This document shows positions 40,904-46,786 of a stretch of DNA of 64,000 nt, piece by piece. Source of the DNA: Thermovirga lienii DSM 17291. GTDB taxonomy: Bacteria; Synergistota; Synergistia; Synergistales; Thermovirgaceae. Both the position numbers and the translations under genes were made by a program. The stretch covers positions 1,638,501 to 1,702,500 of the forward strand of contig CP003096.1 in assembly GCA_000233775.1 (NCBI GenBank). The letters are read 5' to 3'. The notes below the pieces were generated by a model. It was not told where the DNA came from. It worked only from the letters and a program-made list of their open reading frames with translations, and did not search any database. The first letter of the stretch is position 1, and each line of letters begins with the position of its first letter.

Positions 40904-41107
40904 ATGAGCGGAGTCTACAAAATAATAGAAATAATAGGTTGCAGCAGCACATCCTGGGAAGACGCAGTAAAGACGGCCGTGGAAACTGCATCCAAAAGCC
41001 TTCAAGACCTCAGGATTGCTGAAGTGGTAGCGCAAGACGTAACCATAAAGGACGGAAAGGTGGACCAATATCGGGTAAAAATTAAACTATCTTTCAAATA
41101 CCACTAA
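40904..41107 (+). CDS. dodecin-like protein lacking the flavin-binding residues
   Basis: A 67-residue dodecin (YKIIEIIGCSSTSWEDAVKTAV, then LRIAEVVAQDVTIKDGKV and a C-terminal strand). Dodecins form hollow dodecamers that bind flavins. Here the flavin-stacking Trp of LRWFEVV is replaced (LRIAEVV) and the following Gln (HYQV) is Arg (QYRV), so it may bind another ligand or metal, as some non-flavin dodecins do. ATG at 40904 has GGAGG 9 bases before it. TATAAT at 40859-40864 is a likely -10 box. Convergent, with a 4-base overlap, with the TGA-containing gene. Confidence 0.85.
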   Translation: MSGVYKIIEIIGCSSTSWEDAVKTAVETASKSLQDLRIAEVVAQDVTIKDGKVDQYRVKIKLSFKYH

Positions 41108-41457
41108 CAATCAACAATGACATTGGTACCCAACAATAAGTATCCAAGGGTGGTAGGCACCTTATCGATGTAGAGGGCCTCTCCTTCATATTTGAGTCCC
41201 TTCTGGACCCATAGTTTTATCTCCTGTGACTTCACAAGAGAATAGTTTTCTGTGTCTTTTGGCTTGCCACCCTGCACGAGGGCTACATAGTTGGCCCTTC
41301 AACCAGAACCTATATTCTGCAAACTAATGTAACCTTCGTTCCCCATCTTGGCCATCGCTTTCCTGGCCTCGTCGGAAAAAACGACCTCCTGCGCCAAGAC
41401 AGGAGACACGAAAACAAGAACGAAAGCGAACATCAATATAACGGCCTTCAACTTCAT
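41104..41457 (-). CDS. exported protein with in-frame TGA: candidate selenoprotein, HesB-like
   Basis: The frame starts at ATG 41457 (AGGTGG 9 bases upstream) with a clear signal peptide (AVILMFAFVLVFVSPVLA) and runs to TGA at 41299-41301 after NIGSG. Read through that single TGA, it continues 64 more codons without a stop, with coding character (RANYVALVQGGKPKDTENYS; KLWVQKGLKYEGEALYID), to TAG at 41104. The context GSG-U-RANYVALVQGG resembles the GxGC/GxGU site of HesB/IscA-like proteins, in which bacterial selenocysteine members are known. Total 117 residues. A small stem-loop follows the TGA. Alternatives are a point-mutated pseudogene or two products. Selenocysteine is an inference. Confidence 0.6.
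41270..41301 (-). promoter_or_regulatory. candidate bacterial SECIS element next to the in-frame TGA
   Basis: On the minus strand the TGA is followed after 16 bases by CCCT, loop CGTGC, AGGG (41270-41282). A competing pairing AGGGC/GCCCT begins directly after the TGA. Distance and a G-containing apical loop are compatible with a bacterial SECIS, but such stems are short and occur by chance. Confidence 0.35.
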
Positions 41458-41491: not shown

Positions 41492-41878
41492 TCAAAAACG
41501 CCTTTCTTTCCTTATCTCCTCATATGCGGCCTGAATATCTTGGAACTTCTTCGTGGCTAGCTCAATAAATTCTTCGTCAAAATCCTGACCTATGAACCTA
41601 TCGGGATGATATTTGGCCACAAGCTCCTTGTAACGCTTCTTTATTGTCTCTACGTCCGCACTTCTGGAAAGTCCCATAACTTGGTAAGGATCTCTAAAAG
41701 AGTGCCTACTGCCTGTGGAGCTATTTCCTCCATTTTCGTGACCTTCATTCCAAGCTCTTCGGTAGGCTCCACCGGCATTGACCCGTGCCTGCCTCAATAT
41801 GGCAGCCAGTACCTTGAAGCCAAAAAACAACAATAAAATGGGAAAGGCCAACCTCAAAAGCCTTAAAACAAACAGCAT
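41492..41878 (-). CDS. membrane-anchored J-domain protein
   Basis: A 128-residue protein with an N-terminal membrane helix (about 8-27, LLRLAFPILLLFFGFKVLAA) and a C-terminal J-domain (about 63-128: DPYQVMGLSRSADVETIKKRYKELVAKYHPDRF) containing HPD. DjlA-like in plan but much shorter. It would recruit DnaK to the inner membrane. GGAGGG is 7 bases before ATG. Lies upstream of the TGA-containing exported protein gene, 34 bases apart, probably in one transcript. Confidence 0.85.
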   Translation of the reverse strand: MLFVLRLLRLAFPILLLFFGFKVLAAILRQARVNAGGAYRRAWNEGHENGGNSSTGSRHSFRDPYQVMGLSRSADVETIKKRYKELVAKYHPDRFIGQDFDEEFIELATKKFQDIQAAYEEIRKERRF

Positions 41879-41898: not shown

Positions 41899-42153
41899 TT
41901 ACTCTTTTTGGAGCTCCCTTATCTCCTTGCGAAGTTTCTCGATCTGCTCCGTGGTATCCTCTATATCCTTTTTGATCTTCTGCAGCCATTCTTTTCTCTT
42001 AGTTTTGTCGATCTCACCAGCTTTTTCCCCACTCTCAAGGAGGGAAAGCTTCTTTTCCTGTATTTTTAGCCAATCCATTAACTTCTTCTCTCTATCGATC
42101 AGTTCCTTGATTCTTTCTGCATCTTCATCGTCTCTTACAAACGCTCTGCTCAT
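41899..42153 (-). CDS. small coiled-coil protein
   Basis: An 84-residue, highly charged protein, almost all helical heptads (LKIQEKKLSLLESGEKAG; IKKDIEDTTEQIEKLRKEIRELQKE). Its start MSRAFVRDDEDAE resembles the beginning of some GreA/GreB-type proteins, whose first domain is also a coiled coil, but the C-terminal FKBP-like domain is missing. ATG at 42153 has GGAGGGGG upstream; a longer start is unlikely. First gene before the J-domain gene. Function unknown. Confidence 0.65.
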   Translation of the reverse strand: MSRAFVRDDEDAERIKELIDREKKLMDWLKIQEKKLSLLESGEKAGEIDKTKRKEWLQKIKKDIEDTTEQIEKLRKEIRELQKE

Positions 42154-42252: not shown

Positions 42253-42717
42253 TTACAGACCGCAGGAAAGATTGTTCCAAAAGGTTCGGAAGACCCTTGC
42301 AGCTTTTTTTATCCTAGCCTTGCATTCTGGGGTAATTCGATAGGAAAAATCAAAGGATTCCCCTGTAACGGATATCAACCATCCCTCGGGGGCCTGGCCG
42401 ACCAACTGTTCAGCCAAGGAGAGCACATTAGCTGGGCCAAAAGTGTGCATGTTCAGCCCCTCAGCTTTCATGTCCTTAGGGATTACCTTCTCGAAAAGGA
42501 ACCCTTCGGGATAGGACTTCAAAGATGCATCACAAAAAAACAACATCTGGTACCCTTGAACCTCTAGAAGCACCTCAGGGACCAATTGATGTCCTCTCCA
42601 CAACCTTACTTCCGCTCCACTGCTTTTGATGATGCGGGCCACAAGCCCTGCAAGCAAGTGGCCCGCTCCATCATCCTGCCTGGAGACGTTTCCGTATCCC
42701 AGGACGAAAACCTTCAT
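42253..42717 (-). CDS. [NiFe] hydrogenase maturation protease (HybD/HoxW family)
   Basis: A 154-residue endopeptidase. GYGNVSRQDDGAG at the N-terminus is the family signature; the three nickel ligands are Glu in LVPEVLLE (about 47), Asp in FCDASL (about 62) and His in NMHTFGP (about 90). It removes the C-terminal peptide of the large subunit after nickel insertion. Lies directly downstream of the large subunit gene, 15 bases away, which fits its dedicated role. Confidence 0.93.
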   Translation of the reverse strand: MKVFVLGYGNVSRQDDGAGHLLAGLVARIIKSSGAEVRLWRGHQLVPEVLLEVQGYQMLFFCDASLKSYPEGFLFEKVIPKDMKAEGLNMHTFGPANVLSLAEQLVGQAPEGWLISVTGESFDFSYRITPECKARIKKAARVFRTFWNNLSCGL

Positions 42718-42732
42718 GTTCTTACCCTCAGG

Positions 42733-44160
42733 TTAACCCTTGTAAACCTTGCGGAGAACATCTCCATTATCATCCACTATTGAAAGCTCCAAAGGCATCT
42801 TGCCCACCGCATGAGTGGAGCAAGAGAGACAAGGATCATAACACCTGATCAAGTGCTCCATCCTGTTCATTACACCCTCTGGAACGTTGTCTCCCTTTAT
42901 GTGTGCCTTTGCAATGGCCTCTACTCCCTTGTTCATTGCAAAATTGTTGTGTCCTGTGGCTACTATTAGGTTGACATCTGTTATGGCTCCGCTCTCGTCC
43001 ACCTTGTAGTGATGGATCAACGTTCCTCTGGGAGCCTCTATGACGCCAATACCTTCAGGGTAGAGCTCATTGGACGTTATCCTTAGGTCGCTTCCGGTTA
43101 TATCCGGATCTTGCAGCAGTTCCTCAATGCGCTCTACGCCGTAAAGCGCCTCGATCAGCCTGGCGTAGTGATAGTAGAGGACATCGTGAACCATGCCTTC
43201 TTCTCCAGCCTGCCTATAGAGGCTAAGCTCTTCAGAGGCCTCAGGAGTTGAGATGTCATCGCACACGTTGAGCCTACCTAGAGGACCTACCCTGTAGCTT
43301 CCGTTGGGGTACCCCAATGGACGGTAGAAGGGGAACTTAAGGTAGCTCCACGGCTCCACGTGTTCTCCGATGTATTCTGCGTACGCCCAATCGGGAAATT
43401 CATCGATTATTCTTCCTCTTGCTCCCTTGAGCCTTATATCTCCATCGTAAAGTTCAAGGAATCCATCGGCAACCAGTCCCATGTAGGAGGTTTTCATGGG
43501 CGCAAAATTGGATACCTCTTCCTTGTGTTCCTCAAGGTAACCCTTGACCAAGCTCAAGGCATCCTTCACGTATCCTTTCATAACAGGGATCTCTTTGAGG
43601 TAGAAGTCCCTTTCGCTCTCCTTTAGGCTCCTGTTGACTCCACCTGGAATGCTGTGCCAGGGATGAACCTTCTTACCTCCCAAGGTCTTTATTATCTCCT
43701 GGCCAAACTTCCTGAGCATAATGCCTTTAGTGGCTATCTCAGGAAACTTCGCTGCCACGCCTGCAACGTTCCTTATGGCTGGGTCTGCATCGAAACCAAA
43801 GAGAAGATCGGGACTCGAAAGATGGAAGAAGCTCAGCGCATGGGACTGCACAAACTGCCCCATGTGAAGTAGTTCCCTCAGCTTGTGAGCCGTCGGAGTA
43901 ATCTGCACACCCAAAATTGCATCGCAAGCCTTCGCTGAAGCCAAGTGATGGCTGACCGGGCATATGCCGCATATCCTAGGAGTAATCTCTGGCATCTCCC
44001 TGAAATCTCGCCCCTTAGTAAAGGCTTCGAAGCCTCGGAACTGTGTTACATGAAACCGGGCCGTTGTGACGTTTCCATTCTCATCAAGATGTACCGTAAT
44101 CTTTCCGTGCCCTTCTATCCTCGTAATGGGATTAACTTCTATTTTACGAACCGTACCCAT
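42733..44160 (-). CDS. hydL: [NiFe] hydrogenase large subunit (group 3, HydL/HoxH-like)
   Basis: A 475-residue catalytic subunit. Nickel ligands: Cys64 and Cys67 in RICGICPVSH and Cys444 and Cys447 in DPCLSCSTH. Cleavage after His450 would remove 25 residues. NPITRIEGHGKI at residues 10-21 is the canonical L0 motif. It belongs to the cytoplasmic bidirectional group 3. With HydS and the NuoE/F/G-like subunits it forms a soluble NAD(P)- and perhaps ferredoxin-linked hydrogenase. Followed by its maturation protease; Hyp assembly genes are not in this window. Confidence 0.96.
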   Translation of the reverse strand: MGTVRKIEVNPITRIEGHGKITVHLDENGNVTTARFHVTQFRGFEAFTKGRDFREMPEITPRICGICPVSHHLASAKACDAILGVQITPTAHKLRELLHMGQFVQSHALSFFHLSSPDLLFGFDADPAIRNVAGVAAKFPEIATKGIMLRKFGQEIIKTLGGKKVHPWHSIPGGVNRSLKESERDFYLKEIPVMKGYVKDALSLVKGYLEEHKEEVSNFAPMKTSYMGLVADGFLELYDGDIRLKGARGRIIDEFPDWAYAEYIGEHVEPWSYLKFPFYRPLGYPNGSYRVGPLGRLNVCDDISTPEASEELSLYRQAGEEGMVHDVLYYHYARLIEALYGVERIEELLQDPDITGSDLRITSNELYPEGIGVIEAPRGTLIHHYKVDESGAITDVNLIVATGHNNFAMNKGVEAIAKAHIKGDNVPEGVMNRMEHLIRCYDPCLSCSTHAVGKMPLELSIVDDNGDVLRKVYKG

Positions 44161-44174
44161 TTTAACAGCCCCCT

Positions 44175-44714
44175 TTAGTCATACCGCATCATGTCTGCGG
44201 GCACTTTAGGAATCCTACCCTCAAGCAACTCCTGGAAAACCCACAGTATGGTATCCGCATCGGGCGGGCATCCTGGGACATAAACGTCCACCTTTACCAC
44301 TTGGTCAATAGGAATGGCCTTGGGCAGCAGTTCAGGAATGTCCTCTCCCGGGATCACTCCTTTGGGATTAACGGTGCTAACCGTATCTATGTACGCTTTT
44401 TCAAGGACTTCCTTAGTGGGCATGAAGTTACGCATGGTGTTGATGCCTCCAAAGACAGCGCAGTCTCCCCATGCCACCAATATATCACACTGTTCCCGCA
44501 TCTTCTTTGCCAAGTGGACTTCCTCGTCGTTTCCCAGAGCTCCGGAGATGACACCCACATCTACTTTAGGTATCTCCTTGGAATCCACTACAGGAGAATA
44601 CATTATATCTACCTTCTCCAACAAACTCACGATTCTCTCGTCGACATCGAGAAAGGACATGTGGCAGCCCGCACAGGCCTCCAACCAAACGGTAGCAAGC
44701 TTAGCCTTGGCCAT
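44175..44714 (-). CDS. hydS: [NiFe] hydrogenase small subunit (HydS/HoxY-like)
   Basis: A 179-residue short small subunit carrying only the proximal [4Fe-4S] cluster: CAGCHMS (Cys14 and Cys17), WGDCAVFGG (about 82-90) and PGCPPDAD (about 149-156). Homologous to the NuoB-like HoxY. It links the NiFe centre to the HydA electron chain. ATG overlaps the hydA stop by one base (TAATG), so translation is coupled. Confidence 0.95.
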   Translation of the reverse strand: MAKAKLATVWLEACAGCHMSFLDVDERIVSLLEKVDIMYSPVVDSKEIPKVDVGVISGALGNDEEVHLAKKMREQCDILVAWGDCAVFGGINTMRNFMPTKEVLEKAYIDTVSTVNPKGVIPGEDIPELLPKAIPIDQVVKVDVYVPGCPPDADTILWVFQELLEGRIPKVPADMMRYD

Positions 44715-46786
44715 TACAAAGACACCTCCTCCAGCTCAACTATTTGAGCATTCTGGGGAGCTTTCTCACTCCCGAAAAGTTGCTCACAGGGAACAGCCTT
44801 AGGGCTGCCCAACTCCACACCAAGGGCAGATGCAAATTCCTGGATGACCGAAGCCAGGCCTCGTACCTCACCCTTGGGAGGAACCACTACATTCAATCTT
44901 CTTCTCTCACCCTCGATGGTGCAGAAGTGACCGCTTCTTTCGTACCATGCAGGCGCAGGAAGGAGCACGTCGGCCATATTCACTAGGGGATGGACCAAGT
45001 AAGGCGTCTGCACCACCACGAACTTAGTCCTGGATATTGCCGCTAGGGAATCTTCGTCCTCTGGGATCATTCCCGTAGAGAACACGTACATGAAGTCCAG
45101 ATCTTCCTTGCCCAACCAAGCTTCATCGGCCAAAACGGTATTGACCGTACCCAAGCTGTTGCTGCTGACGACCAGAGGAACCACGCCTATGCCGTCCTCA
45201 AAGAAAGCCTTGGATGCTATGGCAAGGTTTACCGCCGCCTGGACCACCAAGGGATTCTTTGAAACGTTGCTTCCTAGGACAAATACTGGCTTTTCAGCCT
45301 TCGAGAGCTTGAGGACCAGCTGTTCTACCTCATCTACGTCCATGTCCACCAAGGACGCAGTCTGCTGGACGTATTTCCTGTAATCATTCAATGCCTCAGT
45401 CCCTTTGCCAAGGTCCTCTTCGGACATCCTCAAAGCGATTATTGCCTTGGTAAGGGAGTCAAGCAAGGCCGGATCCCCACATTCTGAGAGCAGCCTTATA
45501 TCTACATCGGTGATACCTTCGAAGGGGTTATCCCAGCTGGAGACGTTGATTAGGGAGGCTTCGTTCTTTAGAACTCCTACCCTCATGTAGCTTGCAACCA
45601 CCGGTGCCTCCTCGTCGGGATTGGCACATAGATTGACTATACAGTCGCTTTCCAGGATGTTATGAGCTGCAGTAAATGGTCTCACTCCCTGTTTCCTGAA
45701 GGGCTCAAACCCTTTCATGAAACCTCTCAATATGTCACCGTCAAAAGTGTCCAGTCTCTTCATTCCAAGGGAATCCCTGAAGAGAGCACTGAATACAGAA
45801 AGCTCCTCGTCAGTGCATATGCTTGAGACCAAGGCTCCTGCCTTGTCAGCTTCGTGAGCCGCCTTGAAGTTTTCTGCCACCAGAGAGAGAGCTTCCTCCC
45901 AAGTTGCCTCTCTGTAGTGGACGCCTTCCCTTATCATGGGAACGTGGATCCGGTCTCTTTCAGTGGACCTGGGCAGCTCCAATCTTCCCTTGTAACAAAG
46001 CTGGCCACCGTCGGGTTGGTCAGTTGTAGTGCCCTCTACACGAACTACGCTACCAGTTCTCACGTATGCCTTTATCTTGCAACCTACTCCGCACAAGGGA
46101 CATACGCTTTCTACTATGTCATCGCAGTCGCTACGCCGCCCCCTGTAAGCAAATTCCCTTATGGTAATGGTTCCGGTGGGGCAGACCTGGGCACAGGCCC
46201 CGCAGCTAACACAGGTATCGCTCTCTCCCAGTTTTTTACCCAAATCGGAAATAACCTTGGCGTTCCAACCCCTGTCCTTCAAGTCAAGGGTGTGAGCACC
46301 TACTTTTTCTGCACAAACTCTTATACAGCGCAGGCAGAGAATGCAGCGGTTGTGGTCCACCTGGTACTCGGGGTGGGTAGCGTCATTTTCAAAATCCGAG
46401 TAGAGGAAGGGGTACCTAACATGATCCATACCGTGCTCTATGGCCAAACGCTGGAGTTCACAGTCTCCGCTCTGGGAACAGTACATGCAGAAGTGGTTTC
46501 TGCCCGCAAAGAGGAGTTCCAAAACCTGCCTCCTATAGTTGTGCAGGGTCTCGGTCTTGGTGTGCACCACCATGCCGTCTTGAGCAGGAGTGGTGCAAGC
46601 GGTAAGGAGCTTGGGATTCTTCTCAACCTCGACAACACACATTCTGCACGATCCTATGGGAGTCAAGCCCTCAAGGAAACAAAGGGTTGGTATGTCTATG
46701 CCATTTTTCCTTGCAACCCCAAGGATGGTATCTCCATGGGTGCCTTTGCAAACCTTTCCATCTATGGTTAAGGTAATCTCTTTCAT
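44714..46786 (-). CDS. hydA: NuoG-like Fe-S hydrogenase subunit HydA
   Basis: A 690-residue subunit. Clusters in order: plant-type [2Fe-2S] (Cys36, 47, 50, 64), His-ligated [4Fe-4S] (His98, Cys100, 103, 109), two ferredoxin clusters (Cys148-158 and Cys192-202), and a fourth [4Fe-4S] near Cys229-236. A molybdopterin-oxidoreductase-like domain (about 255-690) follows, shorter than in formate dehydrogenases and probably without a metal cofactor. It wires HydB to the NiFe module (HydSL). This NuoG-type HydA with HydB, HydC, HydS and HydL matches the electron-bifurcating NiFe-HydABCSL plan known from Acetomicrobium mobile. Confidence 0.93.
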   Translation of the reverse strand: MKEITLTIDGKVCKGTHGDTILGVARKNGIDIPTLCFLEGLTPIGSCRMCVVEVEKNPKLLTACTTPAQDGMVVHTKTETLHNYRRQVLELLFAGRNHFCMYCSQSGDCELQRLAIEHGMDHVRYPFLYSDFENDATHPEYQVDHNRCILCLRCIRVCAEKVGAHTLDLKDRGWNAKVISDLGKKLGESDTCVSCGACAQVCPTGTITIREFAYRGRRSDCDDIVESVCPLCGVGCKIKAYVRTGSVVRVEGTTTDQPDGGQLCYKGRLELPRSTERDRIHVPMIREGVHYREATWEEALSLVAENFKAAHEADKAGALVSSICTDEELSVFSALFRDSLGMKRLDTFDGDILRGFMKGFEPFRKQGVRPFTAAHNILESDCIVNLCANPDEEAPVVASYMRVGVLKNEASLINVSSWDNPFEGITDVDIRLLSECGDPALLDSLTKAIIALRMSEEDLGKGTEALNDYRKYVQQTASLVDMDVDEVEQLVLKLSKAEKPVFVLGSNVSKNPLVVQAAVNLAIASKAFFEDGIGVVPLVVSSNSLGTVNTVLADEAWLGKEDLDFMYVFSTGMIPEDEDSLAAISRTKFVVVQTPYLVHPLVNMADVLLPAPAWYERSGHFCTIEGERRRLNVVVPPKGEVRGLASVIQEFASALGVELGSPKAVPCEQLFGSEKAPQNAQIVELEEVSL

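Follow-up and report, generated by a model that had tools for sequence, protein, structure and literature searches.

Thermovirga lienii DSM 17291 is a heat-loving anaerobic bacterium with a genome of 2.0 Mb in two contigs. In a stretch of 64,000 nt of this genome (contig CP003096.1, positions 1,638,501 to 1,702,500; the window), a frame on the minus strand, 41457 to 41104, is broken once, by a TGA at 41301-41299. The question was whether this TGA is a stop, a defect or a selenocysteine (Sec) codon and, in the last case, what kind of protein the gene encodes. The frame consists of an ATG (41457-41455) and 51 further codons, the TGA, 64 codons and a TAG (41106-41104). Translation through the TGA as Sec gives a protein of 117 amino acids, with Sec at position 53. 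The plus strand over the same interval contained ordinary stops. The initial annotation had described a signal-peptide protein that stops at the TGA and a frame that stays open for 64 more codons beyond it. Both points were borne out, for the minus strand.

The genome possesses the machinery for Sec insertion. The genes for tRNA-Sec (anticodon tca), selA, selB and selD all scored above the curated cut-offs, so that the search for selA, selB, selC and selD proposed with the annotation found them all. selA adjoins selB, and the selD of the host itself carries one in-frame TGA. In a further sequence (L119:8119-10113), selA-selB are separated by a transposase from a YedF-like TusA-domain gene, the latter named by sequence resemblance.

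Homologues were found in 72 of 188 Synergistota genomes, most of them with one TGA. Of 76 Synergistota frames extracted, 69 had TGA at the column in question and four had Cys, the replacement that the annotation had proposed to look for; the remaining three had Trp, Ser and Arg. Three paralogues in the same genome, cytosolic and 33-35% identical to the read-through protein, each contain one in-frame TGA, and these fall in one alignment column with the TGA of the window gene. The orthologue of a sister Thermovirga (L055), independently assembled, has the same TGA. A sequencing error or decayed gene at 41299-41301, which has nothing in its favour besides the interruption itself, is already refuted by this recurrence in the sister orthologue and the three paralogues, and we give it practically no credence. 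The window protein as the sole query gave no match in the close-relative scan of genome contigs, and no relatives were found in the viral contigs searched. The 33-sequence homologue alignment was too diverse for a pattern search.

Comparison of the two Thermovirga orthologues gave 12, 10 and 27 differences at codon positions 1, 2 and 3 before the TGA (dN 0.24), and 17, 11 and 35 after it (dN 0.23; dS saturated). As judged from these substitutions, the frame downstream of the TGA is under purifying selection. The open frame is, on the same grounds, not due to chance, because the TGA column is identical in 69 of the 76 frames and third-position changes predominate after the TGA.

The annotation had also placed a small stem-loop 17 bases after the TGA. 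A hairpin is indeed present, but it starts 15 nt after the TGA, at 41283-41269 of the minus strand. Its core is GCCCT-CGTGC-AGGGT, with G at loop position 2. The model of bacterial SECIS elements specifies a loop of 3-9 nt, a stem of at least 4 bp, a G in the first two loop positions, 16-37 nt from the UGA to the loop, and a minimum free energy of at most -7.5 (PMC13188914). The window hairpin fits this model, with the loop CGUGC, a 5-bp stem, 20 nt from the UGA to the loop, and -8.6 to -10.6 kcal/mol. The Rfam gathering scan of the window gave no match. Folded alone, the hairpin was no more stable than shuffled sequence (z = 0.66). The stem-loop of this one sequence was thus weak evidence. 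The comparative test is strong.

For the comparative test, six pairs were scored in 58 distinct sequences, the first at nucleotide 18 when the U of the UGA is number 1. The pairs were formed in 87% of the cells. The same geometry at other starts, from 3 to 79, gave at most 67%, making start 18 a unique peak, and sliding the partners by 1-3 bases gave at most 62%. When synonymous codons were shuffled with the protein kept, 59% were paired (sd 2, maximum 65% in 1000 shuffles), and the real value was above all 1000. The stem, at 87% against 59%, is thus maintained by codon choice. The clearest covarying pair joins the third base of a (mostly) Ala codon to the first base of a Gly/Ser codon, with 32 C-G, 21 T-A, two G-C and three mismatches. 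The Fisher value of 4e-14 for this pair overstates the evidence, because related sequences were treated as independent; yet the base-pair switch recurs across paralogues and genera. In the orthologues without Sec, the protein sequence itself favours the stem at this place, hence they are no clean control for the hairpin.

The Sec machinery, the 69 TGA and four Cys homologues, the hairpin maintained by codon choice at one fixed distance, and the purifying selection after the TGA together indicate that the gene encodes a selenoprotein, as the annotation had proposed. On this sequence evidence, the UGA at 41301-41299 is almost certainly decoded as Sec. If the TGA were a plain stop, the product would be an exported peptide of 52 residues and the downstream frame a relic, and a standard gene caller would list just such a short signal-peptide ORF. 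The TGA column shared by 69 homologues, with Cys in four, the selection beyond the TGA and the codon-maintained stem make this reading exceedingly improbable. Such genes are truncated by gene callers that end at TGA, and exported selenoproteins as a group are thus easily overlooked in this phylum, which is rich in selenoproteins.

Judged by eye and by its hydrophobicity, the N-terminus (MKLKAVILMFAFVLVFVSPVLA followed by QE) has the look of a type I signal peptide. The predicted peptide spans 22 codons (41457-41392, minus strand), with VLA before the cleavage site and QE after it. The sister species (L055) has the same start and a similar leader. This signal-peptide-like N-terminus is kept across the group of syntenic orthologues, and its low pLDDT in the structural model is expected of a leader. 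A signal peptide of this Sec-pathway type would carry the protein to the periplasm. The export noted in the annotation, a prediction, is supported by this conservation, and the window selenoprotein is very probably exported.

In a tree built on 101 columns, signal-peptide-like leaders were found in 17 of 74 rows, in two groups. The first consists of eight Thermovirgaceae rows (support 100/99), and the second of nine rows elsewhere, tandem pairs among them (support 99/94). The exported form would have arisen at least once and perhaps twice. Tandem pairs of exported family members are seen at L078:977-1853 and L082:965-1857, each member with its own TGA and hairpin. Of 58 cytosolic forms in Synergistota, 51 lie downstream of an RluA-family pseudouridine synthase gene of the same strand (for example, L013:407-1709); none of 18 exported forms does. 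The exported forms may be duplicates of the second gene of this pair that have moved elsewhere.

The neighbours of the window gene are of a different kind. Immediately upstream, on the same strand, is a gene for a J-domain protein with a hydrophobic N-terminus (41492-41878; PF00226, E 1.2e-13), and next to it one for a small coiled-coil-like protein without a family (MSRAF..., 41899-42153). In all eight genomes of the window's clade that were checked, the order is MSRAF protein, J-domain protein and the exported orthologue. Farther upstream, also on the minus strand, are [NiFe] hydrogenase genes (large, small and NADH-dehydrogenase-like subunits) with a likely maturation protease (42253-46786); the protease had no Pfam match, and we infer its name. 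Hydrogenase genes were found near the selenoprotein gene in Thermovirga and one other genus only, with some of the contigs compared being short. This restriction to two genera, against J-domain and MSRAF neighbours in all eight genomes, weakens the case for a hydrogenase-specific role. On the other side of the gene, a dodecin gene on the plus strand (40904-41107; PF07311, E 1.6e-26) converges on it, and the two overlap by four bases at the selenoprotein stop (41104-41107).

The eight genomes include two of one genus (L083 and L085) in which the syntenic orthologue has lost Sec and lacks Cys there as well, the aligned residue being Trp or Gly, and Ser. This suggested that the genus can do without the residue, or that the role of the protein has changed there. 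Such orthologues offer a natural test of the purpose of Sec.

NF041239, 'CC/Se motif family (seleno)protein' (NCBIfam; Moor_selen_rel), was the one family with a significant match. The window protein scored 35.7 bits, below the cut-off of 40, and the paralogues P0002, P0003 and P0004 scored 45.2, 39.7 and 32.6. The profile was matched at E < 0.01 by 32 of 33 diverse aligned homologues. This poorly known family is by sequence the closest named one, and the window protein appears to belong with it although its own score is under the cut-off. A 2026 review lists the Moorella family, with the motif CxxU, as hypothetical (PMC13188914). The window protein has G-S-G-U at this place instead, and GxGU, sometimes with Cys next, is found across most Synergistota; homologues outside Synergistota have Cys shortly before Sec. 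One genus outside the phylum (L115, L116, L120-L133; genomes of 1.8-2.0 Mb) has three or four copies; among these are two with TGA in tandem and one with Cys. Within this family, which is known but uncharacterised, the window gene represents an unusual variant. A literature search of partial coverage found no description of exported members or of a link to the IscA/HesB fold, and the novelty of these two points is not established.

The annotation had called the protein HesB-like, with the TGA at the Cys of a GxGC motif. Membership in the families of that name did not hold. A canonical HesB/IscA protein (PF01521, Fe-S_biosyn) was rejected for lack of a significant Pfam match: the window protein had none, and the best paralogue scored 12.5 bits against 26.3. 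Of the three ligands Cys35, Cys99 and Cys101, the first is Sec, and the C-terminal pair is absent in the exported forms and partly kept, as Cys tails, in the cytosolic paralogues. The catalogued HesB-like selenoproteins, TIGR01911 (HesB_rel_seleno), are in the literature likewise IscA/HesB-related proteins with Sec, and the position of Sec53, at the first ligand Cys, would suit membership. On the other hand, the window protein did not match the profile at E up to 10, none of 188 Synergistota had a match above the cut-off, the family being essentially absent from the phylum, and the TIGR01911 motif UxGP (PMC13188914) is replaced by U-R-A-N. We rejected this assignment as highly unlikely.

What did stand was the fold and the position of Sec. 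AlphaFold2 models had a mean pLDDT of 85.7 for the window protein, with the mature part mostly above 90, and 80.8 for a cytosolic relative. With both models, the best eight PDB matches in Foldseek were AQ_1857, IscA, SufA and HI1723, which share the IscA/HesB fold, with probabilities up to 1.00 for IscA, SufA and AQ_1857 from predicted structures only. TM-scores to IscA were mostly 0.4-0.5, and no E-value was under 0.001, which indicated that the shared fold is distant. A search of solved structures by sequence profile found none. In profile-profile alignment (hhalign) with E. coli IscA, SufA and ErpA, the probability was 92; the Sec column fell on the first ligand Cys (IscA Cys35), and the CGC motif was matched by the C-terminal Cys of the cytosolic forms. 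A smaller, narrower alignment lowered the probability to 46 and left the register of the Sec column unchanged. This suggested that the GxGC guess was right about the position. The protein is predicted to have an IscA/SufA/HesB-like fold, distantly related, with Sec53 probably at the place of the first metal-ligand Cys of IscA. Taken jointly, and apart from its chemistry, we regard the identity of the gene as an exported selenoprotein of IscA/HesB-like fold as highly probable. With NF041239 tied to a fold and its Sec to a known ligand position, the chemistry of the family becomes open to test.

In most mature proteins of the window's Thermovirgaceae clade, Sec is the only Cys/Sec residue. The window protein has one added Cys, at the last position; the sister species lacks it and has no Cys in its mature protein. 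No intramolecular Se-S bond can therefore form in most of these orthologues, and a same-chain resolving cysteine is, as read from their sequences, not part of the conserved mechanism. For this clade we therefore discarded the idea of a Cys-Sec redox pair within one chain.

The possible function may be outlined as follows. On the comparative evidence, the hairpin 15 nt downstream directs the decoding of UGA as Sec; the Sec-pathway leader would take the protein to the periplasm. There Sec53, presumably exposed, would occupy the position of the first metal ligand of IscA. From sequence and model, a one-selenolate redox or soft-metal site appears most likely. The selenolate may have an oxidised or sulfur-rich compound as its substrate, with an external thiol restoring the selenolate after the reaction; alternatively, selenolates paired in a dimer may hold a soft metal or a cluster. 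The redox version is favoured, tentatively and at something under even chances.

The same identity of the gene would also allow a metal or Fe-S binder that acts like an A-type carrier, with Sec as a ligand. A dimer would provide two selenolates, and the other ligands would come from a partner or from small thiols. The IscA-like fold with Sec on Cys35 is consistent with this, and so are the Cys-rich tails (GGCGCA, GCGSCSCH) in which the cytosolic relatives end where IscA has CGC. A search of 121 Synergistota genomes found no canonical PF01521 carriers, so that a substitute would have a place; for the cytosolic form, this absence is suggestive but not decisive. On the other hand, the exported forms of the window's clade have no tail cysteines, and the mature protein of the sister species is free of Cys. 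Nor is a substitute carrier obligatory, as many Synergistota are without either family. We consider a carrier doubtful, its chances being well below even. A more far-reaching reading is that an exported one-Sec protein on the Fe-S-carrier fold handles sulfur, peroxide or soft metals in the periplasm by a selenolate chemistry not yet described, with no partner cysteine of its own chain. In this reading the protein arose in Synergistota, once at least and perhaps twice, when the cytosolic RluA-adjacent selenoprotein was duplicated. We rate the reading as coming close to an even chance.

Among selenoproteins, formate dehydrogenase N and [NiFeSe] hydrogenase are known from the periplasm. These and the predicted secreted proteases are large cofactor enzymes or proteases, partly exported by the Tat pathway. 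The statement in the annotation that bacterial selenoproteins are mostly cytoplasmic needs softening, since exported ones are known and others were predicted earlier, such as secreted protease families (PMC2398784).

The window protein is homologous to the NF041239 family along residues 25-98, with Sec or Cys at the same site; it differs in its predicted export, in the lack of a Cys-rich tail and in its score under the cut-off. The A-type carriers IscA, SufA, ErpA and HesB are its best fold matches and align their first ligand Cys with Sec, whereas they are cytosolic and have the C-terminal CGC ligands that it lacks. With formate dehydrogenase N, [NiFeSe] hydrogenase and the predicted secreted proteases (PMC2398784), it would share the placing of Sec outside the cytoplasm. 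In contrast to these, it is a protein of 95 residues with a single Sec and a leader of the Sec-pathway type.
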